From assembly GCF_029958905.1 (NCBI RefSeq), contig NZ_CP124614.1, forward strand, positions 62,001 to 126,000: a stretch of DNA of 64,000 bases, given 5' to 3'. The DNA is from Vibrio sp. YMD68 (GTDB taxonomy: Bacteria > Pseudomonadota > Gammaproteobacteria > Enterobacterales > Vibrionaceae). A model generated the notes under the pieces. The model was not told the DNA's origin and ran no database searches. It worked only from the letters and a program-made list of their open reading frames with translations. The translations under genes were made by a program, and so were the position numbers. The number at the start of each line of letters is the position of its first letter. The stretch's first letter is position 1. Positions 14,285 through 63,884 of the stretch are shown one piece after another.

Positions 14285-14322
14285 TGCTGACGCAATAATG
14301 CGCCAGCGTGAGGAGTAAAAAA

Positions 14323-19057: not shown

Positions 19058-19253
19058 TGAGTACCAATCGTAGTCAATAATGGGTCATCCTAGTTTGTTA
19101 GAATACTCGATAATCGCGTTAGAATTTTTGATTGCAAAACAACTGCTTATTGAAAGGTTCTGCCTTGTTATCAAGCATTTTCCTACGCTATTTTTAACCA
19201 CTTATATTTGATGGGTATAACAACTCTCTTTTGCGTCAATTTTTGGAGAAAAC
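19058..19253 (+). other. 196-bp gap inside the gsp operon before gspG
   Basis: All other neighbouring gsp genes overlap or lie within about 110 bp, but 196 non-coding bases separate gspF from gspG. No terminator hairpin is visible. AT-rich sequence near 19190-19235 could be an internal promoter for gspG, but no convincing -35/-10 pair was found. Confidence 0.5.
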
Positions 19254-19697
19254 ATGAAACATAAAATGAACAAACAGTCAGGCTTTACGCTTTTAGAAGT
19301 CATGGTCGTGGTCGTGATTTTAGGCTTGCTCGCCAGCTTTGTTGTACCGAACCTTATCGGAAGTAAAGACCAAGCTGATCAGAAAAAAGCCGTGATTGAT
19401 ATCGCGTCATTGGAAAGTGAACTGATGAAGTACCGATTGAACCATCATTCCTTTCCAACCACCGATCAAGGGTTAGAAGCACTGGTGACGAAACCTAGTA
19501 ACCCTGAGCCACGCAACTACCCAGAAAATGGCTATGTGACTCGTTTACCGGTTGACCCTTGGGGTAATCCTTATCAGTACCTAAATCCAGGTGAGCATGG
19601 TGTGATGGATATTTTCACTCTGGGAGCTGATGGGCAAGAAGGTGGCGAAGGCGTCAACGCGGATATTGGTAACTGGAACCTCCAAGATTTCCAATAA
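19254..19697 (+). CDS. gspG: Major pseudopilin GspG (EpsG)
   Basis: Main subunit of the type II secretion pseudopilus. 147 residues. Short basic leader of 10 residues ending in Gly, then F-T-L-L-E-V with Glu+5, the prepilin peptidase site. The C-terminal half has the conserved calcium-loop region (LPVDPWGNPYQYLNPGEHG, FTLGADGQEGGEGVNADIGNW). Ribosome site GGAGAAAAC. Peptidase (PilD) is not in the window. Confidence 0.98.
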   Translation: MKHKMNKQSGFTLLEVMVVVVILGLLASFVVPNLIGSKDQADQKKAVIDIASLESELMKYRLNHHSFPTTDQGLEALVTKPSNPEPRNYPENGYVTRLPVDPWGNPYQYLNPGEHGVMDIFTLGADGQEGGEGVNADIGNWNLQDFQ

Positions 19698-19800
19698 AGC
19701 CTAATGAGCATGACGAGATAGCACCGCAAAAAATAGTCGCTATCTCTGCTCTACCAAAACGACCACCCATACTGTACACCGCGAAAAGAGTTGCCACTGC

Positions 19801-20391
19801 ATGATGAAATACAAACAACAAGGTTTTACCTTGCTAGAAATATTATTGGTTCTGGTGGTGATTTCAATGGGTGTGGTGACAACACTTTCAGCCTTACCTG
19901 ACAATAGCCAAGATAATGCGAAGCAGCAGGCTCAAGCCTTATTTCAACGCCTTCAATTAATCAATGATGAGGCGATACTGAGTGGCAAAGATTTTGGCCT
20001 TCGTGTCGATGAGACGCGTTCTCGCTATATTTGGATGGGCATTGAAAATGGGCAATGGAAGCCTGTTGCGCTCGATACTATCCCGGAAGAGACTGAACTT
20101 ACGGAAGAAGGCGTGTCGATTGAAATGACGTTGGGGGGCGATGCTTGGAATGACAAAGATCGTCTATTTCAACCCGGCTCATTGTTTGATGAAGAAATGT
20201 TTGCTGATTTGGAAACGGATAACAAACCACTTCCACCTCAGATATTTCTATTTTCAAGTGGGGAAGTGACTCCGGTATCCATTGCTCTATACCCTCAAAA
20301 TAAAGACGCTAAACAGGATGGTTGGCAAGTGGTCATTAAAGAGAATGGCCAAATCCTATTACTGTCTCCGGGAGAGCAGGATGAACAGTAG
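19801..20391 (+). CDS. gspH: Minor pseudopilin GspH (EpsH)
   Basis: 196 residues with an 8-residue leader (MMKYKQQG) before F-T-L-L-E-I, followed by a hydrophobic N-terminal helix and a variable beta-rich domain. Two adjacent ATG codons at 19801 and 19804 are both possible starts. GspH helps form the pseudopilus tip with GspI, J and K. The last 11 bases overlap gspI. Confidence 0.93.
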   Translation: MMKYKQQGFTLLEILLVLVVISMGVVTTLSALPDNSQDNAKQQAQALFQRLQLINDEAILSGKDFGLRVDETRSRYIWMGIENGQWKPVALDTIPEETELTEEGVSIEMTLGGDAWNDKDRLFQPGSLFDEEMFADLETDNKPLPPQIFLFSSGEVTPVSIALYPQNKDAKQDGWQVVIKENGQILLLSPGEQDEQ

Positions 20392-20863
20392 CACTATGAG
20401 TAAGAGTCGTGTGAGCAAGAATATTGTTAGTCATAACATAGTGAGAAATAACATCGCAGCTCGGCAACGGCCGACCAGAGCTCGCCGTTCTTTTGGAGCT
20501 CATACAGGGCCACATTCGGTGCGCGGTATGACGTTACTCGAAGTGTTAATTGCATTGGCTATTTTTGCCACGGCGGCTATTTCTGTGATTCGTTCGGTGG
20601 GTCAGCACATGAATACGATTGCCCATTTGGAAGAAAAAACGTTTGCTGCGATGGTCGTGGATAATCAAATGGCGATGGTGATGCTGGATCCATCAGGATT
20701 GAAAGCTAAGCAAGGAACGGCAGAAATGGCCGGACAAACCTGGTATTGGACCGTCACCCCTATCAAGACTGCTGGGGATTTACTAAAAGCGTTTGATGTG
20801 AGCGCCTCTTTGTCCAAACAGGGCGATGCGATTATAACGGTAAGAAGCTATGTTTCTCAGTAA
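20381..20863 (+). CDS. gspI: Minor pseudopilin GspI (EpsI), with an unusually long predicted leader
   Basis: From ATG 20381 (GGGAGAGCAGG upstream, overlapping gspH) the product is 160 residues. The prepilin site R-G/M-T-L-L-E-V falls at residue 49/50, so the leader would be 49 residues and very basic. Type IV pilin-like leaders are normally about 5-25 residues. Later starts are possible: ATG 20396 or a GTG at 20519 that would leave only three leader residues. Mature part ([13 protein letters not shown] to the end) is normal GspI. Forms the tip complex with J and K. Confidence 0.9.
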   Translation: MNSSTMSKSRVSKNIVSHNIVRNNIAARQRPTRARRSFGAHTGPHSVRGMTLLEVLIALAIFATAAISVIRSVGQHMNTIAHLEEKTFAAMVVDNQMAMVMLDPSGLKAKQGTAEMAGQTWYWTVTPIKTAGDLLKAFDVSASLSKQGDAIITVRSYVSQ

Positions 20864-20881
20864 AGCTATGTTTCGCAGTAA
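20846..20881 (+). repeat. 18-bp tandem duplication at the gspI/gspJ junction
   Basis: AGCTATGTTTCTCAGTAA at 20846-20863 is repeated at 20864-20881 with one difference (CGC for CTC at the middle). The first copy carries the gspI stop and the gspJ ATG; the second gives a second in-frame ATG for gspJ. Confidence 0.95.
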
Positions 20882-21611
20882 ACGGATAGCTCGCAAGGCT
20901 CAGCAAGGGTTTACCTTGTTAGAGGTACTGATTGCTATGGCTATTTTTGCCGCGTTAAGCGTGAGTGCTTACCAAGTGGTGGATCAGGTCCGTATGAGCA
21001 ATGCGATATCGCTGGAACGCGGTGATCGCTTGAAAGAATTGCAACGCAGCCTTGTGGTTATGGACAGTGATTTTAGACAAATGGCCACGCGACAATTTCG
21101 TACCAATGGCGAGGCGGGTGGTGAGCTGAATGAGGCTCAACTACTGCAATGGAAAGACTATCTTTTAGAATCAGACGGAAAAGGTGTGCTATTCACTCGA
21201 CTCGGTTGGCATAACCCACAACAACAGTTTCCACGCGGCGAAATTCTTAAAGTTGGCTATCGAATCAAAGAGACAACGTTAGAGCGAGTATGGTGGCGCT
21301 ACCCTGATACACCAGCAGGTCAGCAACCCATCATTACCCCTATTCTGACGGATGTCGAATCGTTCTCTATGCGATTCTACTCAAAAGGCACTTGGAGCGA
21401 TAAGTGGGAAGCGGCTCAAACACTGCCAGAAGCCGTGGCGCTAGAGCTGGAGTTGGCTGATTACGCAAAAATAGAGCGCGTTTACCTCATTGCTAGCGGA
21501 TCGATAGTGCTCACTGAGAGCAAACAAGAAGATCGAGACTCCTTTAATAACGATTCTTCTGATGATGACGATCCTAACGGTGAGGAGGACAGCGATGAAC
21601 CAAGCGAGTAA
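20850..21611 (+). CDS. gspJ: Minor pseudopilin GspJ (EpsJ)
   Basis: 253 residues from ATG 20850, or 247 from ATG 20868; the two starts come from a tandem duplication. The prepilin cleavage site Q-G/F-T-L-L-E-V follows a 20-residue (or 14-residue) basic leader. C-terminus ends in an acidic tract of D, S and E. Its start overlaps the end of gspI by 14 bp and its end overlaps gspK by 17 bp. Confidence 0.95.
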
Positions 21612-22614
21612 TAAACAGCGAGGTGTTGCACTGATCATCGTTCTCATGCTGCTGGCTGTGATGGTGTCGCTCGCAGCCACTATGTCGAGCCGTTTATTCA
21701 CACAATATAAACGAGGAAGCAACCAGGTCAGTTACCAGCAAGCTTATTGGTATGGCATTGGCGTAGAAAGTTTAGCAAAAGCTGCGATTGAACAGAGTTT
21801 CCAAGACAGCGATACGGTCAATTTGTCTCAGCCTTGGGCATTAGAAGAGCAAACCTACCCGTTAGATTATGGGACATTGAGTGGCCGAATGGTGGATAAA
21901 CAAGCCTGCTTTAATCTCAATGTTTTCTCTCGGGTAACGCTTTCGTCTTCTCAGATAGAAAAACCGTATTTAATCCGGTTTTGGCAAACCTTGCTGGAAG
22001 AAGTGGAGGTGGACAATTACCAAGCGGAAGTGATTGCGGATTCTACATGGGAGTTTATCAATCAAGAGTCCTCGGTACAGTCATCGCAGGGTGTGGGTGA
22101 CAGCTATTATGAATCACTGTCACCTGCGTATATGGCGGCTAACGGTTTTATTGCTGATACCAGTGAACTGAGATCAATACAGCAGGTTTCTGGGGATGTC
22201 ATGCAAAAGGTTGCGCCCTATATTTGCGCTTTGCCAAGTGATGATTGGCGTTTAAATGTCAACACAATCAATGCCGATCAATCGGCGTTATTGGTGGCGA
22301 TGTTTCAGCCTCATTTGAATCAACAAGATGCGATTTCATTGATTGAGTCTAGGCCTTTTGATGGTTGGGCATCGGTTGAGGATTTTATGGCAGAAAGTAG
22401 CATTAGTGTTATTGAAGAAAGTGTTCGCAAGGAAGCTCAAGCCTATCTGAGTGTGGATAGTGCCTATTTTGAATCGGATGCAGAAGTATTAGTGAATGAC
22501 TCTCGAGTACGCATTCGAAGTCTATTATTTAGTGATAATCGAGAAACAGCAACGGTCATTCGCCGTCGCTTTGGAGGGTTCAGTGAGCGAGTTTCTGACA
22601 GTTCGACTGAGTAG
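21595..22614 (+). CDS. gspK: Minor pseudopilin GspK (EpsK)
   Basis: 339 residues, the largest pseudopilin, placed at the pseudopilus tip. Start ATG 21595 with a strong GAGGAG ribosome site. Leader [10 protein letters not shown] then [10 protein letters not shown]. GspK lacks Glu+5, as is usual for this subunit. Contains the expected helical insert (residues ~110-280). Confidence 0.96.
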
Positions 22615-23791
22615 TGATAAAAACGCACAGATTCAGTGGTTAGTTTGGTCAACAACACAAAGTGAGATCATTGCCAGCGGTGAACTCAATGGATGGGAAG
22701 AGCTGGGCGAGCTGTCTGGATATGCAGAGCAAAGACAAGGAATCGTGTTGCTATCGAGCGATGATATCGTTCTAGCTGAAGTCGACATGCCAGCAGGATC
22801 ATCGCGTCAATTGGAATCAATGCTTCCTTACTTATTGGAAGATGACATTGCCCAAGATGTTGATGAGCTTCATTTTACCGTATTAAGCAAGCAAGCGAAG
22901 AAAGCCTGTATCGCTGCCGTCGATAAACGTTGGTTAAAAGCGTGTTTGGACGAGCTTAAACTCGCTGGGATAAATGTCAGTAAAGTGCTGCCAGATGTAC
23001 TCGCATTACCGAGACTTGGTGAGCTTACTGCGGCGAATATTGATCAACATTGGTTAGTTCGAAAAGGCGACAGTTTAGGGCTGAGTTTACCTGCACCTTG
23101 GCTTGAAACCTTAACGACATCTGACTGGGTAAAAGAGGGGCAAGAGTACTTACCCTTAACCTCTTACAGTCCTTTGCCGCCACTAGAGTTGGATAGTGAG
23201 CAATCGTGGCAAAGTGTCGATGGGCCACTGATTATGCAGCTGCTTACCGAAGGCGCACTTGGCTCGAAAGTCACGTTATTGAGCGGGGAGTTTAAGCCTA
23301 ATTCATCCCTGTTAAAGTACTGGTCTATTTGGAAAAAAACCGCCGTTGCCGCAGCGGTTATTGGCGCAGTGTTTGTCGGTCAGTACGGTTTGCAAATTTC
23401 TCAGGATGAAGCCAAAGCCGAAGCTTATCGAGCCGAAAGCGAACGTATATTCCGTGAGGCGTTACCCGGAAAAACCCGAATCCCGACGGTGAGCTATTTA
23501 AAACGCCAGATGAACGATGAAGCGACCCGTTTATCCGGTGGCGGTGGTGGCTCTCCAATACTGGATTGGCTGAATCAAATTCCAGATTCATTGAAAGCCA
23601 ATAGCTCGATGACGTTGCTGAGTATTCGTTACGATGGCAATCGAAATGAAGTTAGAATTCAAGCGAAAAGTAAAGATTTTCAAAGCTTTGAACAAGTTAG
23701 AATTAAGTTTGCTGAGCATTTTGAAGTAGAACAAGGTCAGTTAAGCCGCTCGGGTGAGTGGGTTAATGGCAGCTTTGTGTTGAAGAGATAG
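22583..23791 (+). CDS. gspL: Type II secretion protein GspL (EpsL)
   Basis: 402 residues from GTG 22583 (GGAGGG upstream, overlapping gspK). An actin-like cytoplasmic domain (residues ~1-240) binds the ATPase GspE; one membrane segment lies at ~257-275 ([17 protein letters not shown]); the C-terminal periplasmic ferredoxin-like domain binds GspM. A frame open from 22496 is an artefact of the gspK overlap. Confidence 0.96.
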
Positions 23792-24297
23792 TGAGATTGA
23801 TGATGAGTAAACTGGTCACGTCTTTTAGGCTTTGGTGGCAAGGCATCAGTATTCGAGAGCAACGTCTAGTGATGATCTGTACGGGATTGTTAGTCGTTGG
23901 GGTTGGGTACTGGGGGATTCTAGAGCCAATACAGCAACGAAGCTTACAAGCGCAAAATAAGGTTAACAGTGAACAGCAACTGCTTAACTGGGTGAAAAAT
24001 AAAGCGGATGAAATTACTCAATTACGAGCACAAAGTGGGTTAGTGACGACATCCGAGCCCCTTAATCAGGTAATTTCTTCTTCGGCGAGTCGGTTTAAAG
24101 TGGAGCTTATTCGTATCCAGCCGAGAGATGACATGTTTCAAGTTTGGGTACAACCGATAGAGTTTAATCAGTTGATTGGTTGGATTACCTACCTGAAAGA
24201 GCAACAAGGTGTTGATGTTGAACATTTGGATGTAGCACGCACCGATCAGGATGGCATGGTCGATGTCAAGCGTTTGCAGTTTAAGCGAGGTGGATAA
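23791..24297 (+). CDS. gspM: Type II secretion protein GspM (EpsM)
   Basis: 168 residues from GTG 23791; ATG 23800 or 23803 are alternative starts a few codons later. Short cytoplasmic N-terminus with R-E-Q-R-L, a membrane helix (~27-45), and a periplasmic ferredoxin-like domain ending in VKRLQFKRGG. Partners GspL. Overlaps gspL by one base and gspN by one base. Confidence 0.95.
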   Translation: MRLMMSKLVTSFRLWWQGISIREQRLVMICTGLLVVGVGYWGILEPIQQRSLQAQNKVNSEQQLLNWVKNKADEITQLRAQSGLVTTSEPLNQVISSSASRFKVELIRIQPRDDMFQVWVQPIEFNQLIGWITYLKEQQGVDVEHLDVARTDQDGMVDVKRLQFKRGG

Positions 24298-25067
24298 TGA
24301 AGCGCATCATTCTGATTTCATTGCTTTTGATTGTCACGCTTATCGTGAGCCTGATTGTCCACATGCCAGCTCAATATGTTTTGCAAGCGGTGTCTTTGCC
24401 ACAAGGTTTAGTGGTGCAGGGGACGCAAGGCTCAATATGGAAAGGCAGCGCGGAGCGTGTCAGTTGGCAGGGGACTTCTCTGGGCCAAGTTAACTGGACA
24501 GTCAATGCCGCCCAACTGCTGATGGGTAAAGTTCAAGTGACCACTCGTTTTGGGCAAGGAAGCGAGATAGGGCTGAGAGGGCGAGGTGTAGTTGGTTATG
24601 GCTTTTCTGGCGCCTATGCCAAAGACGTGATTGCTTCTGTTCCGGCTCAGTTTGCTATTGATCAGCTGTCTTTGCCACTGCCGGTGGATCTTGAAGGCCA
24701 ACTCGAGGTTTCCATTATCGAACTTGAGCATGCGATGCCGTATTGTCAGAGCGGCACAGGAACCGTGGTTTGGAGTGGTAACAACGCGACAACCCCGTTA
24801 GCTGAACTGGCGCTTGGCTCTGTTGTGGCGAACATTGATTGCCAAGATAACGTCGTCTCGATTAATGCGAAGCAGGAAAGTGAGCAAGTCAGCGCGGAGT
24901 TTGAAGGGCAATTAGACGCAGCGACCAATGGTCAGCTGACATACAGTGCCAAGGGTTGGTTTAAACCAGAAGCTAATTTTCCGACGAGTTTATCGAGCCA
25001 GTTGCAATGGCTGGGTAACCCAGATAGCAAAGGGCATTATTCATTGGATTTCAATGGCCGTTTATAG
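24297..25067 (+). CDS. gspN: Type II secretion protein GspN (EpsN)
   Basis: 256 residues, inner-membrane anchored by an N-terminal helix (IILISLLLIVTLIVSLIV) with a periplasmic beta-rich domain related to AsmA-type proteins. Last gene of the operon; start overlaps the gspM stop (TAATG). Followed by a bidirectional terminator. GspN is absent from many type II systems but usual in Vibrio. Confidence 0.94.
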   Translation: MKRIILISLLLIVTLIVSLIVHMPAQYVLQAVSLPQGLVVQGTQGSIWKGSAERVSWQGTSLGQVNWTVNAAQLLMGKVQVTTRFGQGSEIGLRGRGVVGYGFSGAYAKDVIASVPAQFAIDQLSLPLPVDLEGQLEVSIIELEHAMPYCQSGTGTVVWSGNNATTPLAELALGSVVANIDCQDNVVSINAKQESEQVSAEFEGQLDAATNGQLTYSAKGWFKPEANFPTSLSSQLQWLGNPDSKGHYSLDFNGRL

Positions 25068-44519: not shown

Positions 44520-44576
44520 ATGAGTGTTTCTGGCAATCGTTTGCCTATTTGTCAAATGTTTGATTTTTTAGCGTAA
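44520..44576 (+). CDS. Candidate 18-residue small ORF
   Basis: ATG 44520 preceded by AAGAAGGAAG at ideal distance; product MSVSGNRLPICQMFDFLA. It lies just before the riboswitch promoter, so it would be on a different transcript. No hallmark of an attenuation leader (no run of one regulatory amino acid). May be chance. Confidence 0.25.
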   Translation: MSVSGNRLPICQMFDFLA

Positions 44577-44605: not shown

Positions 44606-44633
44606 TTGAATTATTCACCGGAGCGATTAAAAT
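44606..44633 (+). promoter_or_regulatory. Sigma-70 promoter of the riboswitch and permease
   Basis: TTGAAT (44606-44611), a 16-bp spacer, then TAAAAT (44628-44633). Start near 44640, about 11 nt before the aptamer, with a GC-rich discriminator (CGCGCC). Confidence 0.65.
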
Positions 44634-44650
44634 TCGCGCCAAAGTTTTAT

Positions 44651-44721
44651 CGCACTGTATATGTTTAGTGATTTGGTCTAAACGTTTCTACTACTGAGCC
44701 TAACTCGGTTGCTACAGTCAT
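44651..44721 (+). ncRNA. Purine riboswitch aptamer (guanine-type specificity base)
   Basis: Three-way junction matching the purine riboswitch. P1 ACTGTA (44654-44659) with TACAGT (44713-44718). P2 GTTTAG with CTAAAC (44663-44668, 44678-44683) and a loop TGATTTGG close to the consensus TGATATGG. J2/3 is GTTTCTAC (44684-44691), identical to the consensus. P3 ACTGAG with CTCGGT and loop CCTAA. J3/1 TGC places C at position 74 (44712), which specifies guanine or hypoxanthine, not adenine. It precedes a purine permease. One atypical base is G for A at position 73. Confidence 0.85.
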
Positions 44722-44741
44722 TTTTGGTTGTGTCGTTGTAA

Positions 44742-44807
44742 AACGGAACCCCATATTCAGCGTGATAATCCCACCGAATTTTTAAATTAACTGAATAAGG
44801 TTCCGTT
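44742..44807 (+). promoter_or_regulatory. Riboswitch expression platform hiding the permease start
   Basis: AACGGAACC (44742-44750) is a perfect 9-bp complement of GGTTCCGTT (44799-44807), whose left end is part of the AAGG ribosome site and whose right end touches the GTG start at 44808. There is no T run after it, so control is likely at translation, as in the V. vulnificus add riboswitch. Confidence 0.7.
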
Positions 44808-46178
44808 GTGAGCATCGATACTAGCATCAAGAATAGTGCGTCTGATTCTTTTCTTGAATCAACCTTCAAGATTACCGAAAGAAAATCCACCATTGGCACC
44901 GAGCTGTATGCCGGCTTTATTACTTTCTTGGCCATGAGTTACATCCTCGCGGTTAACCCAGCGATTCTAGGTGATATCCCTGGTATGGATCGCGGTGCCA
45001 TCTTTACCGCGACCGCATTGGCGGCTGCGCTTGCAACGCTGATTATGGGCGTGTTTGGTAATTACCCTGTGATGCTGGCACCAGGGATGAGCATGAACGG
45101 CTTTTTTAAAGGGCTATTGTTCAGTGGCTCTGTCGCTTTGGTATGGCATGAAGCGCTGTTTGGTATTTTCTTATCGGGTGTGCTTTATCTTATTCTTTCG
45201 ATGACCAGCTTGCGTAAAGCGATGATTGAGTCGATTCCTGAAGATCTTAAGCTGGCGATTACCGTTTCTCTTGGTCTATTCATCGCTTTTCTTGGCTTAA
45301 AGAACGCAGGCATCATTGTGTCGAATCCGTTTGTTCTTGTCGGTATGGGTGATATTACCAACCCGCAAGTGCTGATCGCCTTCATCAGTATCTTCATTGC
45401 ACTAGGCTGTATGGTTCGTGATATTAAACTTGCGACGTTCATTTCGTTTGTTTCAGCGATCGCTTTAACCATTCTTGCTGATATTTTCTTGGGCACCAAT
45501 CACGCGCCGATTCCAGATCAGTTTGTCACTATGCCACCAAGCATGGAAGGCAGTTTTGGTGCGATCTTTAACTTCTCAGGATTTACCGCAGAGAAGATGT
45601 TTGATCTGCTTTTCATCGTTATTATTTTCTTGATTGTCGATTTCTTTGATGGGCTAAGCACGATTGTGGGTGTTGGCCGTGATGCGGGTATTATCGATAA
45701 AGATGGCAAAGTACCGAATGCACGTTCAGCATTGGTTGCTGATGCCGGCGGCACCGTGATTGGTTCAGTATTAGGTACGACGTCTATTACCGCATTCTCT
45801 GAATCGGGTATTGCTTCTTCACAAGGCGCGAAAACAGGTTTGGCCGCGGTGATGGTTGCCGGCTTGTTCTTAATATCGCTATTTCTATACCCACTGTTCT
45901 CCATTTTCTCAGCCGCAATGGTGGCACCAGCGATGGTGGTGGTTGGTATCTACATGATTGGTCGCCTTGGCCAAATTAACTGGGAAAAGAAAGAGGCACG
46001 TATCGCTGCCTTCTTTACCATCATGTTTACGGTATTAAGCTTCTCACCAGCCAATGGTATGGCAATGGGCTTTATCAGCTACGCATTCACTATGGTGGTT
46101 GCCGGTAAAGGCAAGCAAGTCCACCCAGTTATCTATGCGCTGTGTGTATTGTTCATGACTTACTTGGTTCTATTATAA
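44808..46178 (+). CDS. NCS2-family purine permease (AzgA/PbuG type)
   Basis: 456-residue polytopic membrane protein of the AzgA-like nucleobase:cation symporters that import hypoxanthine, guanine or adenine. Start GTG 44808 behind a riboswitch. Family motif APGMSMNGFF near residue 87 (usual form GMGxNAxF), plus DFFDGLSTIVGVG and the second half-site FSESGIASSQGAKTG. About 12-14 membrane segments. The substrate (guanine or hypoxanthine) is inferred from the riboswitch base. Confidence 0.95.
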   Translation: MSIDTSIKNSASDSFLESTFKITERKSTIGTELYAGFITFLAMSYILAVNPAILGDIPGMDRGAIFTATALAAALATLIMGVFGNYPVMLAPGMSMNGFFKGLLFSGSVALVWHEALFGIFLSGVLYLILSMTSLRKAMIESIPEDLKLAITVSLGLFIAFLGLKNAGIIVSNPFVLVGMGDITNPQVLIAFISIFIALGCMVRDIKLATFISFVSAIALTILADIFLGTNHAPIPDQFVTMPPSMEGSFGAIFNFSGFTAEKMFDLLFIVIIFLIVDFFDGLSTIVGVGRDAGIIDKDGKVPNARSALVADAGGTVIGSVLGTTSITAFSESGIASSQGAKTGLAAVMVAGLFLISLFLYPLFSIFSAAMVAPAMVVVGIYMIGRLGQINWEKKEARIAAFFTIMFTVLSFSPANGMAMGFISYAFTMVVAGKGKQVHPVIYALCVLFMTYLVLL

Positions 46179-55140: not shown

Positions 55141-55908
55141 TTAGCCTTTCCACCATTTGGTGGGTTTGTACTCGTTTCCTAAAACGGCTAAGTGATAAAA
55201 GTTTGTCATGAGGTTAAGAGTCATATTTTTAACCTTATTGATAATTTTCATGACTGCAACGAAGTAGTTCTTCTTACCGGATCGTTTCCGGTTGCCGATG
55301 ATAGAAGGTTTGTTTTCTCCCCAAAGGCCCGATTGACAAACACCAAAGATAGGTTGTTTATGAATCCAAGCATTACGTAAGAACACATCGACAGGGTAAT
55401 CAAAAGTTTGGCTGTGTTCTATGAAGGCTTTCGCGCATTTAGGCGAGATAGCGTAGGCCGTCATGCACTGTGGGATTTTAAGGTATTTCACTAATCGCTG
55501 TTCACCATAAGTGCGAACTTGATAGAACATGTCGTGGTTATCGGCATTTTCAATTCGAATATAGCCGCATTTGTCGATATGTTCTTTAGCGATGTCCAAT
55601 GTGCTTTGAAACATCTCAGGGTTAATATCAAAATCATCCTCAAAAATGATGATGGGTTCGTTAAGCTCTACACACTTCTGCCACATAAGGTAGTGGCTGG
55701 CGTAGCATCCAAATTCTCCAATGGCTGCTGGGCGCCCCATGTTATATAGAAATTCTTTATCTCTGTTGCGGTTTAGCAAAGGGTGAGTGTCTACTCGTGC
55801 ATCAACACCGATAAAGAATTCAACCTCGAGCTGTGCTTTCGTGAGGACTTTTTTTGTGGTGGCTTGGCGATCTTCGCAGCCGTTTAGGGTTATGCAGTAT
55901 GACTTCAT
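55141..55908 (-). CDS. Glycosyltransferase family 25, LPS biosynthesis
   Basis: 255 residues from ATG 55908 (M-K-S-Y-C-I-T-L-N-G-C-E-D-R), with GGA upstream; the frame extends to 56037 without family similarity. GT25 features: N-terminal nucleotide-sugar region, G-E-F-G-C-Y-A-S-H segment and an acidic I-F-E-D-D-F-D motif. Probably adds a sugar to the LPS core. Only gene of the first part of the cluster on this strand, convergent with mutM. Confidence 0.88.
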   Translation of the reverse strand: MKSYCITLNGCEDRQATTKKVLTKAQLEVEFFIGVDARVDTHPLLNRNRDKEFLYNMGRPAAIGEFGCYASHYLMWQKCVELNEPIIIFEDDFDINPEMFQSTLDIAKEHIDKCGYIRIENADNHDMFYQVRTYGEQRLVKYLKIPQCMTAYAISPKCAKAFIEHSQTFDYPVDVFLRNAWIHKQPIFGVCQSGLWGENKPSIIGNRKRSGKKNYFVAVMKIINKVKNMTLNLMTNFYHLAVLGNEYKPTKWWKG

Positions 55909-56175
55909 AAAAAATCCAGTGTTAAATATAGGTAGATTAATTACATGAAATATTGCTTTGTTACAAATCGAAAGTGAGAGTTTGTAAGCTAAGCGACAAC
56001 TTTTTTTCAAGGAGTTTTTAGAGAGTGCAGGGTGCATTTTTTGTCATAGATGTCAGAAGCAAAGTCAGGGCTCTCGTTTTCTTATACTGTATGAGTAAGA
56101 TTGCGTGAAACATATGCTGACTCAAGATATAATCTGTTCTTTTTTCGCCCCGTATTGTAGTAGGAGAGGCCTTAA
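55909..56175. other. Divergent region between two GT25 genes
   Basis: 267 bp, AT-rich, marking the left border of the LPS operon. It must hold promoters both ways. No JUMPstart-like motif was seen. Confidence 0.5.
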
Positions 56176-56934
56176 ATGGTGCAACCCATTGAGCATGTGT
56201 TTGTCATTCATGTAAGTGAAGGATATGAAGATAGAAGGAAGCATATCGACAAGCATTTACCAGAGTCAGGTCTGGATAGTTTTGAGTATGTGCTTGATGG
56301 TGATATTAAAGACTTAACAAGGGATGTTTTAGATAGCTTATTCCTAGGTAGTCCTCAAACCCCGGCAGAGAAATCATGTTTCTATAAGCACTATTTAACT
56401 TACAAAGCTATTGTGGAAAGAGAGATTCCTTTTGCTCTGGTGTTAGAAGATGATGCCTATTTGACAAAAAACTTTTCAAGTAAATTAGAAAAAGTTATTG
56501 ATGAGCTGAAGGATAAGTCTAACTATCTTATTAATATAGAAAGTGCTTATTTGAGCGTGCCATTTAAATTTCGTAAGTGTGATCAGCACATTTATTTAGC
56601 CAACTACACCAAAATGACGGGTGGTTATATTATTGACTATAAAGCGGCTAAAAAGCTGTACGACTATCTTAACTCTCATCCTATTCACCTTCCTATAGAT
56701 GTTTATCAAAGTGAAATGAGAGATGTTATTGGATTTAATATTTATTGGGCTCAACCGGATCTAGTTCAGCAAGGCAGCAAAAATGGTACTTTTGCTAGTG
56801 CCATTAATGCTGAAGGCACAGGGGTAGCTGATAAATTTCGCTATATGATTAAGAACTACCATAAGAAGTATATTTGGAGTCATGTCAACAAACGAGTTTT
56901 AAGAGTCTTTGAAAATGTCAAATCACATAAGTAG
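56176..56934 (+). CDS. Glycosyltransferase family 25 (paralogue A)
   Basis: 252 residues: FVIHVSEGYEDRRKHIDKHL, EKSCFYKHYLTYKAI, VLEDDAYL (acidic metal site), QGSKNGTFAS. Clearly a close paralogue of the protein at 61485-62222. GT25 enzymes add galactose or other sugars to the lipooligosaccharide core. First gene of the + strand LPS operon; GTAGGAGAGG ribosome site. Confidence 0.9.
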   Translation: MVQPIEHVFVIHVSEGYEDRRKHIDKHLPESGLDSFEYVLDGDIKDLTRDVLDSLFLGSPQTPAEKSCFYKHYLTYKAIVEREIPFALVLEDDAYLTKNFSSKLEKVIDELKDKSNYLINIESAYLSVPFKFRKCDQHIYLANYTKMTGGYIIDYKAAKKLYDYLNSHPIHLPIDVYQSEMRDVIGFNIYWAQPDLVQQGSKNGTFASAINAEGTGVADKFRYMIKNYHKKYIWSHVNKRVLRVFENVKSHK

Positions 56935-58126
56935 TAATAAAAATAATAATAAATTTATTCAGCTTCTATTCATTCTTCCTGTTCTTTGGATGACGACAGG
57001 AATGCTATGGGACGGTGATGGGGATATGCGTCTCGTTCCCATTGTTCTAGTTTTAGCTTTGGTCTCAATATTCTTTTTTCGCTTCGAGATCATAAAAGAC
57101 AATTTCAAGAATAGCTTTTGGATTAAGCTGTTGCTTGTCAGTGGACTGTTTGGTGCCATCGCATATAAAATATATGGCTTTGATTCACGTGAACTAAGAG
57201 CTACTTTGGCTATTCTTGTCTTATTGTTAGTAACTCCAAGAGACTTTTACACTAAAAACGTTATGCAGTGGATGTTGCTGGTCGCCGCGTGTTCTTGCGC
57301 TTTATATGGGTATTACTATCAGGTTCATGTTTATATGGACCGTGGATCTTGGCCTATCAACGCTATTCCATTTGCAACCATTTGTGGATTAGTTGGTATC
57401 TTTTCTCTGGGACTTATTGTTGCCCATTTCAAAGAAAAGAGTGTAGTAATTTTATTTGCTTCATTTTCTTTTTCTGTGGTTGGTTTATTACTTAGTCAAT
57501 CGCGTGGGCCTTTGATCTCTATGTTGGTGATAGTTTTCCTTCTCTTATTATACGTCTCATCTAGAAGAAGCAAAAAATTGAGTGTATACGTACTAGTGTG
57601 TTTAAGTGCAATTACCTTGGGAATATCTCAGTTATCATTCGTTCAACAGAGAGTCGAATATACTGTTCAAGAATATCGGTTGATCCAAAAGGGTGAATAC
57701 GGGTCTTCTGTTGGGGTTCGCTTGAGAATGCTCAATATGGGGGTTGAGTTGTGGCAAAAAAAACCAATTTTGGGTTATGGTAAAGATATCAAGCAAGAGT
57801 TTGATCGATTAGAATCAGAAAAAAGAATATCTCCGATATTTAATAGATACATTTCAATGACTTTTCACAATGGCTATATCGATAAATTTGTTATGTATGG
57901 AGTAGTTGGTGGCGTTATTTTTATTTCTTTTTTGCTTTATCCCATTATATTGTCTAGGCGATTTTCTATAGAAAATGGCTCCGCTCTTTTATGGCCTCCT
58001 GCATTATTTATAGCAGTTTGTAATTTTTCAGATGCGCCATTTATTAATGCTCAAGCGGCAATTTATTATATGTACTTGATTGGTTTTGTTAGCTTTATGC
58101 TGATGAATCAAAAAGAGGAAGCATGA
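56915..58126 (+). CDS. waaL: O-antigen ligase/polymerase-like membrane protein (WaaL type)
   Basis: 403 residues, 10-12 membrane segments, with the Wzy_C family features: large periplasmic loop near 285-320 (GVRLRMLNMGVELWQKKPILGYG...HNGYIDKFVMYG) and S-R-G-P. Joins O-antigen to the lipid A core on the periplasmic side. Starts at ATG 56915 inside the end of the GT25 gene (20-bp overlap). AT-rich compared with the flanking conserved genes, as is usual for LPS genes. Ligase versus polymerase is not decided by sequence. Confidence 0.82.
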   Translation: MSNHISSNKNNNKFIQLLFILPVLWMTTGMLWDGDGDMRLVPIVLVLALVSIFFFRFEIIKDNFKNSFWIKLLLVSGLFGAIAYKIYGFDSRELRATLAILVLLLVTPRDFYTKNVMQWMLLVAACSCALYGYYYQVHVYMDRGSWPINAIPFATICGLVGIFSLGLIVAHFKEKSVVILFASFSFSVVGLLLSQSRGPLISMLVIVFLLLLYVSSRRSKKLSVYVLVCLSAITLGISQLSFVQQRVEYTVQEYRLIQKGEYGSSVGVRLRMLNMGVELWQKKPILGYGKDIKQEFDRLESEKRISPIFNRYISMTFHNGYIDKFVMYGVVGGVIFISFLLYPIILSRRFSIENGSALLWPPALFIAVCNFSDAPFINAQAAIYYMYLIGFVSFMLMNQKEEA

Positions 58127-59067
58127 AGCTATTTTATTACCTAAAGCATACGGCTTTGGAGTTGCTACCAAGAACTCTGTTTCGAAGGCATTATAGTGTT
58201 TTAAATGGTGCTTATCAGGGGCAAGAAGGTTACATTAAAGGGCGCGTTAAGTATTATTTTAAAGTTAAAGGCTCATTTGCACTTTCAAACAACGGTGTTG
58301 AAATCAACAACTATAAGAGAAAAGGTTACACCTCATACTATTTTGATCTCAAAGAGTTTCTTCATTATTTCCCAAAGCACTTTCGATTTTATTATTATTT
58401 CGGTGATGAAACGCACATAGAGCCAGTGCCTACCTTGTTCAAAGCTCGCCCAATAGAAGGGGACAATCGAAACTCCGTCCTTTTCAAGCTCGATAAAAGA
58501 CGTCACTTTCGCTTCGTTAATGACAAGCTAAAATATTCAGATAAAAAGGATATGGCCGTCTTTCGAGGCGCGGTCACGCAACCTCATCGTATTCGCTTTA
58601 TGCAAGAGATGTTCGAACATCCATTAGTGGATGCTGGGCAATCTAATTCATGTGATGAACACCCAGAATGGCAGAAGCCGTTTATGTCGGTTGATGAACA
58701 ACTTCAATATAAGTTTCTGATTTGTTTAGAAGGCAATGATGTTGCGTCAAATTTAAAATGGGCGATGTCTTCGAACTCTGTGGTTATTACACCTAAAATG
58801 AAGTACGAAACTTGGTTTATGGAAGGCACATTAAAAGCGGGTGTTCACTATATTGAAGTGAAAGATGACTGGTCAGATTTTGACGAAAAAATGCAATATT
58901 ACCTAGCTCATCCAGAAGAAGCTGAGAAGATCATTAAAAACGCACATGACTATGTCGCGCCATTTAAAGATGAAAAATTAGAGCAACTTATTTGCATTAA
59001 AACACTAGAACGTTACTTCGAATTATCCGGTCAATACGTTAATGAACACCATAATGATAATAGCTAG
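58123..59067 (+). CDS. Glycosyltransferase family 90 (CAP10-like)
   Basis: 314 residues with the GT90 core: VFRGAVTQPHRIRFMQ, YKFLICLEGNDVASNLKWAM, SNSVVITPKMKYETWF, AGVHYIEVKDDWSDF. Related bacterial enzymes act on LPS or capsule glycans. Coupled to the WaaL-like gene by ATGA overlap. Sugar unknown. Confidence 0.88.
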   Translation: MKLFYYLKHTALELLPRTLFRRHYSVLNGAYQGQEGYIKGRVKYYFKVKGSFALSNNGVEINNYKRKGYTSYYFDLKEFLHYFPKHFRFYYYFGDETHIEPVPTLFKARPIEGDNRNSVLFKLDKRRHFRFVNDKLKYSDKKDMAVFRGAVTQPHRIRFMQEMFEHPLVDAGQSNSCDEHPEWQKPFMSVDEQLQYKFLICLEGNDVASNLKWAMSSNSVVITPKMKYETWFMEGTLKAGVHYIEVKDDWSDFDEKMQYYLAHPEEAEKIIKNAHDYVAPFKDEKLEQLICIKTLERYFELSGQYVNEHHNDNS

Positions 59068-59110
59068 AACCGTTAGAATTAGAACCGTTAGAACCAGAAC
59101 GATAAGAAAT
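59066..59110 (+). repeat. 15-bp tandem repeat, about 3 copies, GT90/waaF spacer
   Basis: AGAACCGTTAGAATT (59066-59080), AGAACCGTTAGAACC (59081-59095), then a weaker AGAACGATAAGAAAT (59096-59110), filling the gap after the GT90 stop. Confidence 0.88.
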
Positions 59111-59118
59111 AGAAGACT

Positions 59119-60174
59119 ATGAAAATACTGGTAATCGGCCCGTCATGGGTAGGGGACATGGTGATGTCCCAAGGTTTGTACATTGAACTAAAAAAACAAT
59201 ATCCTGATGCCCTTATTGACGTCTTGGCTCCGGCCTGGTGTAAGCCAATCCTTGAGCGAATGGCCGAGGTGAATCAAGCCCTTGAAATGCCATTGGGGCA
59301 TGGACAGTTTGATCTGAAAACTCGATATTCGTTAGGCAAGTCTCTGAAAAATGAACAATATGACAGGGCCTATACACTACCAAACTCAGCGAAATCCGCG
59401 CTCATTCCTTGGTTTGCTCAAATACCCAAGCGAGTGGGCTGGAAAGGTGAAATGCGTTATGGACTTCTCAACGACATCCGCACCAACAAAAAATCCTTCC
59501 AATACATGCTTGAGAGATATGTAGCATTAGCGTATGCCAAAGAAAAAATGACGGGCAGTGGTTGTTTGGGTGAGCTATCAGGCTTGCCGTTTCCAAAGCT
59601 AGAAGTCATAGAGCAAACACAATCGGCAGCGATGGAAGAATTCGGTTTAAATTTGGAGCGCCCCGTTCTTGGTTTATGCCCTGGCGCTGAATTCGGCCCA
59701 GCCAAACGTTGGCCCGATAATCACTTTGCTGCAGTTGCCTCTAGGATGATTGAACTCGGCTATCAAGTGTGGCTATTTGGTTCGGCCAAAGATCGAGAAG
59801 TGACAACCAAAATTATTGATCAAGTACAATCTGATGGGCAGCAGTATTGTTTTAATCTCGCTGGCAGCACAAGCCTGATTCAGGCCGTCGATCTGATTGG
59901 CGCCTGTCGTACCGTTGCCAGTAATGACTCTGGTTTGATGCATGTTGCCGCTGCGGTGGGCTGTAACGTAGTTGCTGTTTACGGGTCTAGTTCTCCGAAA
60001 TACACACCACCGCTAACCGAGAAGTTGTCGATTCTGAATACTGACATTGACTGTCGCCCTTGCTTTGAACGAGTTTGTCCTAAACAGCATCTAAAGTGCT
60101 TAACGGAGCTTATGCCTGAGAAAGTTATTACTGCGATTCAGCAGTTTGACATCATTAAACAAGAGCATATTTAA
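59119..60174 (+). CDS. waaF: ADP-heptose--LPS heptosyltransferase II
   Basis: GT9 enzyme adding the second heptose of the inner core. 351 residues: N-terminal K-I-L-V-I-G-P-S-W-V-G-D-M-V-M-S-Q, C-terminal LCPGAEFGPAKRWP, SNDSGLMHVAAAVG and PKYTPPL. Lies before waaA. Confidence 0.96.
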   Translation: MKILVIGPSWVGDMVMSQGLYIELKKQYPDALIDVLAPAWCKPILERMAEVNQALEMPLGHGQFDLKTRYSLGKSLKNEQYDRAYTLPNSAKSALIPWFAQIPKRVGWKGEMRYGLLNDIRTNKKSFQYMLERYVALAYAKEKMTGSGCLGELSGLPFPKLEVIEQTQSAAMEEFGLNLERPVLGLCPGAEFGPAKRWPDNHFAAVASRMIELGYQVWLFGSAKDREVTTKIIDQVQSDGQQYCFNLAGSTSLIQAVDLIGACRTVASNDSGLMHVAAAVGCNVVAVYGSSSPKYTPPLTEKLSILNTDIDCRPCFERVCPKQHLKCLTELMPEKVITAIQQFDIIKQEHI

Positions 60175-60186
60175 AAGGCGAGAAGA

Positions 60187-61488
60187 ATGACAACGATGGT
60201 TCGTTGGTGTTACACCATACTGCTCAGTCTCATTAGCCCCATTTTACTGTGGGGTTTGTATCGTCCGAAAACCAACAAACCACCCTTTGGTCGACGCTGG
60301 AAAGAGCATTTCGGTTTCACACCAAAAATTGACCACAGAAAATCAGGTGTTATCTGGATTCATGCTGTGTCAGTCGGTGAAGTTCTGGCCAGTAAGAAGT
60401 TAGTGGAGAAGTTGGCAGAGCAAAACCCAGACAAACGAATACTGGTGACAACAACAACCAGTACTGGCGCTGAGCAAGTTGAAAGGATGGGTAATGGCAT
60501 CATACACCGTTATATGCCGATAGATTTTAGCTGGTGTGTTCGAGGTTTTATTCATACTGTCCAACCCGAAAAAATGCTCATTATTGAAACAGAGTTATGG
60601 CCGAATACGATTCATACCGTTGCTAATAATCACATCCCAATTACGTTAATCAATGGTCGCCTTTCGGAAAAATCTGTTGGTAATTATCGTAAATTAAATG
60701 CTTTGATTTATCCTGCGGTCTCCCAGTTACATTTAATACTCACGGTTCATGCTGCTGATAAAGCTCGATTTGAATCCCTTGGGGTGTCAAGTGAAAAGGT
60801 TATTGTTACAGGCTCTATTAAGTATGACGTTACACTCAATCAAGATATCGAAGTTCAAGGACATGCACTAAAAAACGCCCTTGGAACCAACAGAAAAATA
60901 GTAGTAGCAGCTAGCACTCATCAAGGAGAGGATGAACAAATACTTGAGGCTTATCAACAAGCCAAAATGGAGGTGCCAGAGCTATTGCTCGTGATTGTCC
61001 CTCGTCATCCTGAGCGGTTTGATCGAGTGGCGGATTTAGTCTTAAGCCAAGGCTTAACTTTGGTTCGTCGCAGTGATTCGATAGAGAGTGTTGGTCGTCA
61101 TGTCGATGTCTATTTGGGCGATACGATGGGCGAACTCATGGTTATGTTATCGGCAAGCGATCTTGTTTTCATGGGTGGAAGCCTAATCGGAAAAAAAGTT
61201 GGCGGGCATAATTTCATAGAGCCAGCACTGCTTAAAAAATACTGTTTAACAGGCCCTAGTTATTTTAATTTTTCTGATCTTGCTCATCAGCTTATAGAGT
61301 CGAATGCGCTTTCCGTAGTATCGGATGCAAACGATCTTGCGATGCAGATAGTCAGCGCCCTGGCTAAACCGGAAGAGTTAACTGAAAAAGGGCAGTGGGG
61401 CTATGGTATAGTTAAGCGCAATCAAGGCGCTTTACATAAAACACTCGAGTTAGTAAGTACTTCACCAAATATTGAGACACCATCATGA
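60187..61488 (+). CDS. waaA: 3-deoxy-D-manno-octulosonic acid transferase
   Basis: Adds Kdo to lipid IVA; essential. 433 residues: N-terminal membrane anchor (~8-25), HAVSVGEVLAS, ETELWPN, and the C-terminal VGGHNFIEPA. With KdkA in the same cluster it probably makes one Kdo that is then phosphorylated, as in Vibrio and Haemophilus. Overlaps the next gene as ATGA. Confidence 0.97.
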   Translation: MTTMVRWCYTILLSLISPILLWGLYRPKTNKPPFGRRWKEHFGFTPKIDHRKSGVIWIHAVSVGEVLASKKLVEKLAEQNPDKRILVTTTTSTGAEQVERMGNGIIHRYMPIDFSWCVRGFIHTVQPEKMLIIETELWPNTIHTVANNHIPITLINGRLSEKSVGNYRKLNALIYPAVSQLHLILTVHAADKARFESLGVSSEKVIVTGSIKYDVTLNQDIEVQGHALKNALGTNRKIVVAASTHQGEDEQILEAYQQAKMEVPELLLVIVPRHPERFDRVADLVLSQGLTLVRRSDSIESVGRHVDVYLGDTMGELMVMLSASDLVFMGGSLIGKKVGGHNFIEPALLKKYCLTGPSYFNFSDLAHQLIESNALSVVSDANDLAMQIVSALAKPEELTEKGQWGYGIVKRNQGALHKTLELVSTSPNIETPS

Positions 61489-62222
61489 TCAAAACTTTTG
61501 TCATTCATGTCAGTAAAGGCTATGAAGAGCGCAGACAGCACATCGATAAACACCTGCCTGAGCGTGGTATTACGGATTATGAGTACATGCTGCGCGGTGA
61601 TATTGATGATTTGAATGATGAAATTCGTAATGAGTTTTTTGATGATTCGCTAAGGTTGCCTGAAAAATCCTGTTTCTATAAGCACTACTTGGTGATGAAG
61701 AAGGTCGTTGAAGAGCAGATACCTCATGTTTTAGTGCTTGAAGATGATGCCATCTTGGTAAGAAACTTCTTGGATAAGCTACTTGAAGCTTTAGGTGAAG
61801 TGAGTGAAGAGTCTAATTATTTTGTCAACATTGAAGATGCAGCTACATCCGTACCATTCAGCTTAAGAGTTTCAGGGCAGCAACTTTACCGTAGTAAAAC
61901 AAATAAGCTGTGTGGAGGCTATGTCTACGATTTATCTTTCGCGACGAGAATGGTGACTTATATTGAGACGAACACAATTGATGCGCCTATCGATGGGTTA
62001 ATTGGGAATGTTCGTTCTGAGCTGGGTTACAATATATTTTGGTGCCAGCCGCCTCTTGTTTCGCAAGGAAGCAAAAATGGAATGTTTGCCAGCGAACTGA
62101 ACGGCGCAAAATCTGGGCTCTACATACGATTAAGAAGTGCGATTAAAGACTGTTATAGACGTGATATTCGAAGTCATCTCAGTAAAAAACACAAAGCGCT
62201 CTTTCAGAACATGAACAAGTAG
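61485..62222 (+). CDS. Glycosyltransferase family 25 (paralogue B)
   Basis: 245 residues, sharing most conserved segments with the GT25 protein at 56176: FVIHVSKGYEERRQHIDKHL, EKSCFYKHYL, VLEDDAIL, QGSKNGMFAS. Acts on the LPS core, sugar unknown. Start overlaps the waaA stop, so it is translated with it. Confidence 0.9.
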   Translation: MIKTFVIHVSKGYEERRQHIDKHLPERGITDYEYMLRGDIDDLNDEIRNEFFDDSLRLPEKSCFYKHYLVMKKVVEEQIPHVLVLEDDAILVRNFLDKLLEALGEVSEESNYFVNIEDAATSVPFSLRVSGQQLYRSKTNKLCGGYVYDLSFATRMVTYIETNTIDAPIDGLIGNVRSELGYNIFWCQPPLVSQGSKNGMFASELNGAKSGLYIRLRSAIKDCYRRDIRSHLSKKHKALFQNMNK

Positions 62223-62229
62223 TAAGACT

Positions 62230-63123
62230 ATGACATCAAACTTAGCTCGGACACACTTAACCTTCGTAGTTTATGGAAACGATAAAACTTACTATCAAGG
62301 CGCAAGGTTTTGCATTTTGTCTTTTTTAGCCAATTGGGTTGAGGCAAATGGAACTAGGCCTGAAATCTCTGTTCTAGCGGAAGAGACTGAGCACTTCGCT
62401 AGTATGCCAATTAAAGTGTTTCCTATATCGCCTTCTCAAAAGGCAGAATGGAGCCTAGACAATACTTATCACTTCAGAATTAAAAATCGTGGTTTAAAAT
62501 ATCTTTGTGATAATTTAGAGTTGAACCCTGAAGATAAACTTCTTTTTTTAGATACCGACACATACTTTACCCTAGCCACCAATGTGTACTTCGATTCAAT
62601 CTCCAATGATAGTGCACTGTTGTTTTGCTCGGAAGTGAACATTAATACCCTTCCAAAGAATAATGAATATGCCGCTATAAGAGATAGGGATATTAAACTC
62701 GCTGATGGCAGCGTCTATCGCACAGACTCCGACTCGGTCATGTGGGCATCTGCAGTGATTGGAATGACTGGATCTCGCATATCAGCTTTCGATCATGCTG
62801 ATATGTTGATTCAAGGCTTACGCAAGGAAGGGTGTTTCGCTCATACTCTAGAGCAATTTGCGTTATCTGAAGTTCTTTCTAGGCAAGTTTCGATTACGCC
62901 AGCAAAAGAGTGGGTGAACCACTACTCAACGAGTGGAAGAAAAGACTGGGCCAGAATCGTTTTAGAGCGATTTTTTGAAGAGCATGGCAACAAGCCTTTT
63001 GAAGAGCAAGTACGCCTAGCAAAAGGTGTCAGCTTTAAGCGCCCCCTTGCTGAGGTGATTCGAGGGCATATCTACAAGAAGAAAAAGAAACTTCGCAAAT
63101 TGTTTGGCCTGAAAGAAGAGTAG
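62230..63123 (+). CDS. Putative glycosyltransferase
   Basis: 297 residues. An L-D-T-D-T-Y-F motif near residue 107 looks like the DxD metal site of a GT-A fold enzyme, and WASAVIGMTG and VNHYSTSGRKDWAR follow. No family recognised with certainty. Highly basic C-terminal tail (KKKKKLRKLF), suited to membrane association. Located right after the second GT25 gene, so an LPS role is likely. Confidence 0.7.
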   Translation: MTSNLARTHLTFVVYGNDKTYYQGARFCILSFLANWVEANGTRPEISVLAEETEHFASMPIKVFPISPSQKAEWSLDNTYHFRIKNRGLKYLCDNLELNPEDKLLFLDTDTYFTLATNVYFDSISNDSALLFCSEVNINTLPKNNEYAAIRDRDIKLADGSVYRTDSDSVMWASAVIGMTGSRISAFDHADMLIQGLRKEGCFAHTLEQFALSEVLSRQVSITPAKEWVNHYSTSGRKDWARIVLERFFEEHGNKPFEEQVRLAKGVSFKRPLAEVIRGHIYKKKKKLRKLFGLKEE

Positions 63124-63161
63124 GATTTGCCTGCATTAGTTTCAGTATTCTTTCTGGGTAA

Positions 63162-63884
63162 TCAAGAGTAATCGAGGGTACTTTCACAGTATCCTTTTTT
63201 TATCTCTGAAAAGTCAAAATTAGCGGCACTAATGCGCCCTAGTCGGACTTCCTTTTCGAATGAGCGTTCAAGGCGCTCTATATTGCTCTCTTTCCAGTTA
63301 TCGCCACTTTGTGTTCGGCACTTATCAAAATCAATAATCCAAACTTTTTTGTCTTTATCGAGTAGGATATTGTGAATGTTAAGGTCAGTATGATTAACGT
63401 TCACATCGTGCATTTTTCGAATTTGACGACCTATATTTCTCAAGTCAGTGTTTGATAGCTTCTCACTCGAGAGTATCTTTACCAAATCTTCAGCATGAGG
63501 GAGTTTTTGAACTAAGATATCAGCCTTGTAGGTTAGTCCGTTCTTTGAGACTTTTGCTGCGACTGGAGCCGGAACGTTGACATTATTTTCAGTCAGTAGT
63601 TTGAGTAGTAGCAGCTCTTGAAAAGCTCTCGACGTCTTTAACCCTGTAAACCAGTAGCGATCACGGACCAGTTTTCCAAACAAACCACCGCGAATATAGT
63701 GCCTAAGGGCAAAGTTATCTTTATTACCTTTTACAAACCATGTCGTCCCTCTACCTTGGGCACTGCCTAGTATCGCTTGATTCTCTTTCCAGTAATCAAT
63801 AGAAAAAGCAGATTCAACATCTTCTGTGAGCACTAAAGGATCATACCAGTACGTTGCATTGTTGATTTGTTTTGTTGTGAACAT
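63162..63884 (-). CDS. kdkA: Kdo kinase
   Basis: Phosphorylates the single Kdo residue of the LPS inner core. 240 residues of a kinase fold: GRGTTWFVKGN, A-L-R-H-Y-I-R-G-G-L, catalytic H-T-D-L-N-I-H-N-I-L-L-D near 160 and I-I-D-F-D-K-C-R near 180. Start ATG 63884, weak ribosome site. Convergent with the glycosyltransferase genes. Confidence 0.95.
   Translation of the reverse strand: MFTTKQINNATYWYDPLVLTEDVESAFSIDYWKENQAILGSAQGRGTTWFVKGNKDNFALRHYIRGGLFGKLVRDRYWFTGLKTSRAFQELLLLKLLTENNVNVPAPVAAKVSKNGLTYKADILVQKLPHAEDLVKILSSEKLSNTDLRNIGRQIRKMHDVNVNHTDLNIHNILLDKDKKVWIIDFDKCRTQSGDNWKESNIERLERSFEKEVRLGRISAANFDFSEIKKGYCESTLDYS

Follow-up and report, generated by a model that had tools for sequence, protein, structure and literature searches.

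The closest described relatives of the element analyzed here are the guanine riboswitches (RF00167, C74) such as xpt and yxjA of B. subtilis, with which it shares the fold, the letters of J2/3, C74, the link to a purine transport gene and the expected OFF logic. Those two systems are terminator-based, whereas the present switch is apparently translational, and its clade also differs from them by a 5-nt L3, G73 and U72. The add riboswitch of Vibrio vulnificus carries U74, responds to adenine as an ON switch and controls a different gene. It shares the genus and the aptamer family with our element, and it is likewise translational according to the passages of PMC5847336 on its mechanism. Regulation by yxjA likewise depends on a helix in competition with P1, and there the P1 3′ strand is the one used (relevant sections of PMC9756952), whereas the 5′ strand of P1 appears to be exchanged in the switch of the window and of Vibrio. 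Re-pairing of the 3′ strand is also how P1-regulated riboswitches are defined in the cited part of a review (PMC11477058).

In Shewanella, a purine riboswitch has been reported to control an adenosine deaminase and a purine transporter (sections of PMC3223726 on purine metabolism). The transporter riboswitch is probably the same element as that found below in 11 Shewanella loci, so the basic element is already in print, and those sections describe no expression platform for it. Rare variants of the same fold (xanthine-II, guanine-II and the guanosine/2′-deoxyguanosine type) have changes in the joining regions, as in the clade of the window; they were reported, in the part of PMC9295807 cited here, to be narrowly distributed across Firmicutes, and the word Vibrio is absent from its main text. 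The U51G change and the J2/3 and J3/1 insertions given there for xanthine-II and guanine-II are absent in the window. In the open-licence literature, which is a narrow basis, no description of 5′-strand exchange in a purine riboswitch was found. The same literature gave no Vibrio guanine riboswitch before an NCS2 permease, and a supplement of PMC3766115 may list such sites. The aptamer is a new member of a known family, and the expression platform is the part that differs.

The window, namely the whole stretch of DNA that was analyzed, comprised 64,000 nt of Vibrio sp. YMD68 (contig NZ_CP124614.1, positions 62,001-126,000 of the forward strand). Based on the reading of its frames, the genes which we take to be spoT, rpoZ and gmk are read to the left and the permease gene (44808-46178) is read to the right, with the intergenic region between them. 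Elsewhere in the window, the frames at 13346-25067 presumably belong to a type II secretion operon and those at 55141-63884 presumably to lipopolysaccharide or glycosyltransferase genes. The features of the locus were as follows.

44531-44546, no strand assigned: box TGGCAATCGTTTGCCT, taken by us as a PurR-type operator, agreeing at 10 of 11 fixed positions with the consensus we assume; protein binding is putative
44606-44633, + strand: candidate sigma-70-type promoter TTGAAT-16-TAAAAT, weak alone, at a like position in relatives
44647-44657, + strand: switching strand UUAUCGCACUG, made up of the 5′ flank of P1 and a portion of its 5′ strand (44654-44657)
44654-44718, + strand: purine aptamer core
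44654-44659 and 44713-44718, + strand: P1
44663-44669 and 44677-44683, + strand: P2, with L2 at 44670-44676
44684-44691, + strand: J2/3 with GUUUCUAC, in a complete P1-P2-P3 three-way junction
44692-44698 and 44704-44710, + strand: P3, with L3 at 44699-44703 (5 nt)
44710, 44711 and 44712, + strand: U72, G73 and C74
44719-44752, + strand: linker, not conserved in sequence, holding the 5′ arm of the 9-bp hairpin
44742-44750 and 44799-44807, + strand: 9-bp base stem AACGGAACC/GGUUCCGUU, which encloses the ribosome site as far as the GTG
44755-44760 and 44791-44796, + strand: sequestor stem AUUCAG/CUGAAU, adjoining the Shine-Dalgarno AAGG (44797-44800)
44758-44768, + strand: decoy CAGCGUGAUAA, complementary to the switching strand and sharing CAG with the sequestor stem
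44808-46178, + strand: NCS2 permease, probably of the AzgA type, with a GTG start and 456 aa

The first-pass annotation had assigned the leader to the purine riboswitch family, and the covariance-model scan agreed: RF00167 matched 44635-44734 on the + strand, where its 47.1 bits exceeded the gathering score of 37 (E 8.6e-7 for the 601 nt searched). This was the sole Rfam match over threshold in the 64-kb window, and the search of the genome (150 of 349 first-look candidates scored) gave one purine match at E<=1, that of the window itself. P1, P2, P3, the J2/3 letters, C74, G73 and the 5-nt P3 loop were all present as annotated. Position 74 was C (C44712), which bears out the guanine class, whereas position 73, a highly conserved A of the consensus that lies beside the pocket and makes no contact with the ligand, was G (G44711); the element is therefore filed under RF00167, with its ligand class likely rather than proven. 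The ligand-contacting letters U22, U47, U51 and C74 were unaltered, and the letters that would make the loop-loop contact were in place (GG at 44675-44676 in L2, CC at 44699-44700 in L3). In a MAFFT alignment of 36 of the 46 distinct Vibrio leaders, from which ten near-identical ones were excluded, 13 of 21 predicted aptamer pairs showed a pair-preserving double change. Taken together, the Rfam score and the presence of the aptamer upstream of the related permease in 69 of 80 loci confirmed that the purine riboswitch aptamer is real and did not arise by chance.

The permease matched Pfam PF00860 with 72.5 bits, and its sole PDB matches at E<=0.01 were three entries named adenine/guanine permease AZG1 or AZG2, which indicated the AzgA branch of NCS2 and upheld the NCS2 assignment made earlier; the NCBIfam search assigned no family. 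The closest named relative by permease was Vibrio genomosp. F10 (L032, 98% identical). A search with the permease found 96 loci, and the 80 from named genomes were retained (57 Vibrio, 3 Photobacterium, 11 Shewanella, 4 Ferrimonas, 2 Aliagarivorans, 2 Psychromonas and 1 Marinobacter). The 69 aptamers among them each carried C74, as the regular expression used to find them required, and the remaining 11 loci were read by eye. The aptamer was absent from eight of these, all Vibrio (L037, L046, L109, L065, L067, L068, L069 and L072), which had the same permease, a similar promoter and a PurR-type box. In the other three (L038, L041 and L049, of the V. splendidus group), an insert with inverted ends, about 260 bp long and situated some 125-390 nt ahead of the permease start, took the place of L2, and P2, P3 and C74 were retained around it. 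The end of this element was searched for in the genome of the window and was not found there. The insert constitutes a natural test of the need for the loop-loop contact.

The 5-nt P3 loop had been called unusual, but L3 had this length in 67 of the 69 aptamer loci, with 7 nt in the two Psychromonas loci only, so the short loop is a lineage trait. Across the genus, under stricter filters, 138 of 196 genomes had a purine match at E<=0.01; this count included a second, higher-scoring type (L002-L031), of which 12 of 30 loci were read by the regular expression, all with A73 and T74.

The promoter proposed just upstream was no better than chance when its pattern was taken by itself (1 found vs 1.5 expected). 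In 63 of the 69 related loci, 21-26 nt separated the end of the best −35/−10 pair from the TATA of the aptamer, and a similar pair stood upstream of all 8 aptamer-less loci, both counts being without a shuffled control; by this recurring position the promoter of the window is believable.

The box at 44531-44546 was the only PurR-type site of score >=10 in the window. Sites scoring >=9 were present in the 500 nt ahead of the permease in 60/60 Vibrio and Photobacterium loci and in 0/20 others. The 11 Shewanella loci, with no such site, agreed with the statement in the cited sections of PMC3223726 that PurR is missing in Shewanella. A stricter pattern gave 8 matches in the genome of the window and 7 when read backwards, so the number of matches is uninformative. 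Six of the eight lay 38-170 nt before purine or one-carbon genes, namely the putative fhs, purE, purL, folD and purT genes and a second NCS2 permease gene; purL was cut by the end of its locus and was below its cut-off. Of the other two, one preceded an unassigned frame and one had no frame after it. The second permease (L144) was 39% identical to that of the window; its PurR-type box began 38 nt before the start, and it had no purine riboswitch, the aptamer of the window being the only one that the genome search gave. In many Vibrio loci (e.g. L050, L057 and L073), two PurR-type boxes flanked the promoter at a spacing of about 62 or 71-74 bp, values that differ by roughly one helical turn, and the second box overlapped the P1 5′ flank that pairs with the decoy. 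The PurR-type box upstream of the permease suggests dual control by a riboswitch and a PurR-type repressor.

Downstream of the aptamer, the segment 44722-44830 folded better than all of its shuffles (0/200 as good, z −3.95). The sequestor stem was identical in letters in the window, L032, L033 and L034. Within the window, the 9-bp stem is predicted to do most of the closing of the ribosome site. This hairpin, on which the earlier interpretation had relied, was indeed perfect in the window but was not conserved: its 5′ arm lies in the variable linker, the perfect form occurred in the window only among the four leaders of the G73 clade, and the other strain of the same species (L032) was without it. 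No intrinsic terminator-like site was found between the aptamer and the gene, which supported translational control over termination. Overall, the first-pass annotation held for the family, the class, the gene, the promoter and translation, but not for the rarity of the loop or the conservation of the hairpin. It gave no link between the aptamer and the hairpin, and the decoy helix is the best supported link.

In the window, the switching strand and the decoy can pair at 10 of 11 positions, the exception being an A-C mismatch, and this helix taken singly was not significant (p about 0.07). For 41 of 47 Vibrio leaders, the distance from the first base of the decoy segment to the start codon was 42-50 nt. 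Across the 36 aligned leaders, 86.6% of the cells of the decoy helix were paired compared with 77.3 in shuffles, 25 cells were changed on both sides compared with 7.5, and covariation reached 0.293 compared with 0.140 (0/500 as high), while slid versions of the helix gave 0.026-0.098. Two of the five measures stayed at shuffle level, namely the pairs with a double change (5 vs 4.1, 183/500) and the further pair types (15 vs 13.6, 147/500). P1 itself hardly varied across the leaders. Four leaders (L070, L071, L075 and L079) were aligned elsewhere and mostly counted against the helix, and each had its own complementary segment; in L061, L070, L071 and L075 pairing was maintained despite a complete change of letters.

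Complementarity was also evaluated in 20 representatives, one leader per distinct 5′ flank, the start codon of the ten non-Vibrio ones being set by hand. The summed complementarity of the P1 5′ strand was 397 compared with 307 in shuffles (z 7.9), whereas that of the 3′ strand was 271 compared with 269 (z 0.3), with no partner above shuffles among these representatives. Exchange of the P1 3′ strand, the alternative pairing that defines P1-regulated riboswitches in the cited part of PMC11477058, was accordingly rejected. The 5′ flank read backwards as a control gave z 3.3 (0/300 shuffles), so part of the z of 7.9 is composition. Single representatives reached p<0.05 in 7/10 of Vibrio and in 2/10 of other genera (L086 and L088); support for the switch is accordingly good within Vibrio, and outside the genus the switch is only suggested.

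The balance between the two folds was computed by constrained folding, in which either P1 or the decoy helix was forced and the energies were compared, for 47 leaders (the window and 46 Vibrio loci). At full length the difference, decoy minus P1, averaged +0.8 kcal/mol and was at or below +5 in 44/47 leaders; in 21 representatives the real mean was 0.5, compared with 3.8 for shuffled linkers. The decoy fold was preferred in 47/47 leaders when the decoy had just emerged, in 45 just before the ribosome site and in 20 at full length, and at the first of these stages the 21 representatives averaged −6.0 kcal/mol compared with +0.7 for shuffled linkers. Compared with the P1 fold, the decoy fold left more bases of the ribosome-site stretch unpaired in 34/47 leaders and fewer in 1. 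Unconstrained folding of the window gave the decoy fold at RNA end 44770, a closed ribosome site without P1 at 44812 and a closed site with P1 at 44830.

Decoys fitted their own ribosome sites better than permuted ones among 41 distinct pairs (−10.3 vs −9.2, 0/5000, relatedness not removed), and on reading of the leaders this gain came mainly from the splendidus-type and ACGUG-type ones. When the decoy was blocked in silico in the 47 leaders, the Shine-Dalgarno opened in 13 of them and closed in 8; for the start codon the corresponding numbers were 16 and 3. Pairing of the decoy with the ribosome site was hardly predicted in L066, L070, L075 and L079. Since blocking the decoy gave such mixed openings and closings, the predicted link from the decoy to the ribosome site is only moderately supported.

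The computations thus show the aptamer, its link to the gene, the covarying decoy helix and the balance of the folds within the genus. Based on these results, we propose, with a probability of roughly 0.7, that a guanine-class riboswitch responds to abundant guanine (or hypoxanthine) by turning translation of the AzgA-type permease OFF. When the leader is transcribed, the aptamer would form first. With no ligand, the decoy would invade P1 and take its 5′ strand and flank, and, being thus kept from the stem at the ribosome site, would allow the permease to be made. With the ligand, P1 would be locked and the AUUCAG/CUGAAU stem would close over the Shine-Dalgarno, joined in the window strain by the 9-bp stem. 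Switching would presumably take place during transcription, the window strain would behave like its relatives, and a PurR-type repressor would probably control this gene as well, by acting on the DNA. A broader proposal, for which we hold the odds to be somewhat short of even, is that Vibrio and perhaps a wider range of gamma-proteobacteria use an undescribed platform in which the P1 5′ strand is exchanged with a downstream decoy resembling the P1 3′ strand, and that in many Vibrio the flank lies inside a PurR-type operator.

Several results for the leader of the window speak against this model. Its OFF fold at full length was better than the decoy fold by 12.6 kcal/mol, so that an equilibrium would keep it OFF whether or not the ligand were present, and 29/30 shuffled linkers favoured the decoy fold at least equally. 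The same leaning was found in L033 (+11.0, 28/30 shuffled linkers) and L032 (+6.7). In the window, the decoy fold freed only one more of the 16 bases around the ribosome site, 7/40 shuffles did equally well at the decoy stage, and the decoy scored −6.4 with its own ribosome site against a swapped mean of −8.0, with 26/39 as good or better. Such a bias would mean either that the switch could work only during transcription or that the clade is biased towards OFF. A failing riboswitch, with a weak aptamer, a mismatched decoy and an over-stable hairpin that leave the gene mostly OFF, would account for this bias and poor fit and also for G73, the non-canonical 54-72 position and the A-C mismatch. 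We consider it improbable: the aptamer with its 5′ flank (66/72 and 69/72 identical to L033 and L034) and the decoy block 44753-44778 (25/26 to each) were kept while the linker diverged (13/33 and 13/34), which makes decay unlikely on the pattern of conservation; L034, of the same clade, was balanced (−1.4), and the P3 changes in L033 preserved pairing. G73 may instead have altered the pocket so that the same switch responds to another purine (hypoxanthine, xanthine, guanosine or 2′-deoxyguanosine). The substitution was unusual, as had been noted: position 73 was A in 66/69 related loci and G in 3 (L032, L033 and L034, the three nearest to the window), and a pattern search of 227 genus genomes gave 26 matches, of which 22 were judged to be chance because the P3 letters were missing, leaving real G73 aptamers in 4 (G000, G025, G198 and G219). 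U72 accompanied G73 in all four, so either the 54-72 pair is lost or G73 substitutes for U72, which is then bulged. For the add aptamer, passages of PMC9588036 describe how A73 and the 54-72 pair hold A24 between them, which makes a local effect near the pocket plausible; the comparison is a loose one, since U occupies position 24 both in the window and in most relatives. In favor of an altered pocket, the rest of the aptamer is conserved and same-fold variants with changed joining letters have other ligands, but guanine-II variants still bind guanine despite many changes (both statements on variants from the cited part of PMC9295807). With the contact letters unaltered and the same permease gene downstream as in the A73 relatives, the sequences give no sign of an altered ligand, and this explanation seems unlikely.

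Two further explanations concern the step after ligand binding. The switch might act on transcription, e.g. through access of Rho to the untranslated leader, instead of on the ribosome site; the leader is long, and an action on Rho sites has been attributed to other strand-exchange riboswitches (relevant passages of PMC10907184). The lack of an intrinsic terminator-like site and the reach of the pairing into the ribosome site in most predicted folds speak against such action, which is about as doubtful as a failing switch. It is very improbable that the decoy helix is an accident of composition, that the hairpin merely lowers expression and that the aptamer acts otherwise, e.g. as an ON switch. 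The excess of the reversed flank over shuffles would fit such an accident, but the covariation of the decoy helix above both shuffles and slides, the survival of pairing through complete letter changes and the specificity for the P1 5′ strand do not.

Translational OFF control through exchange of the P1 5′ strand thus remains our preferred explanation, and specialists would gain from it a collection of guanine-type switches, apparently translational and varied by nature, whose switching helix is legible from covariation and whose P1 strand in use is opposite to that of the textbook case. The G73 clade, with an altered letter adjoining the binding pocket, is suited to a comparison of binding, and the Vibrio groups with a PurR-type box and without the RNA switch may allow the contribution of each control layer to be separated. 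If the broader proposal is true, one short stretch would serve both as DNA operator and as RNA switching strand in many Vibrio.
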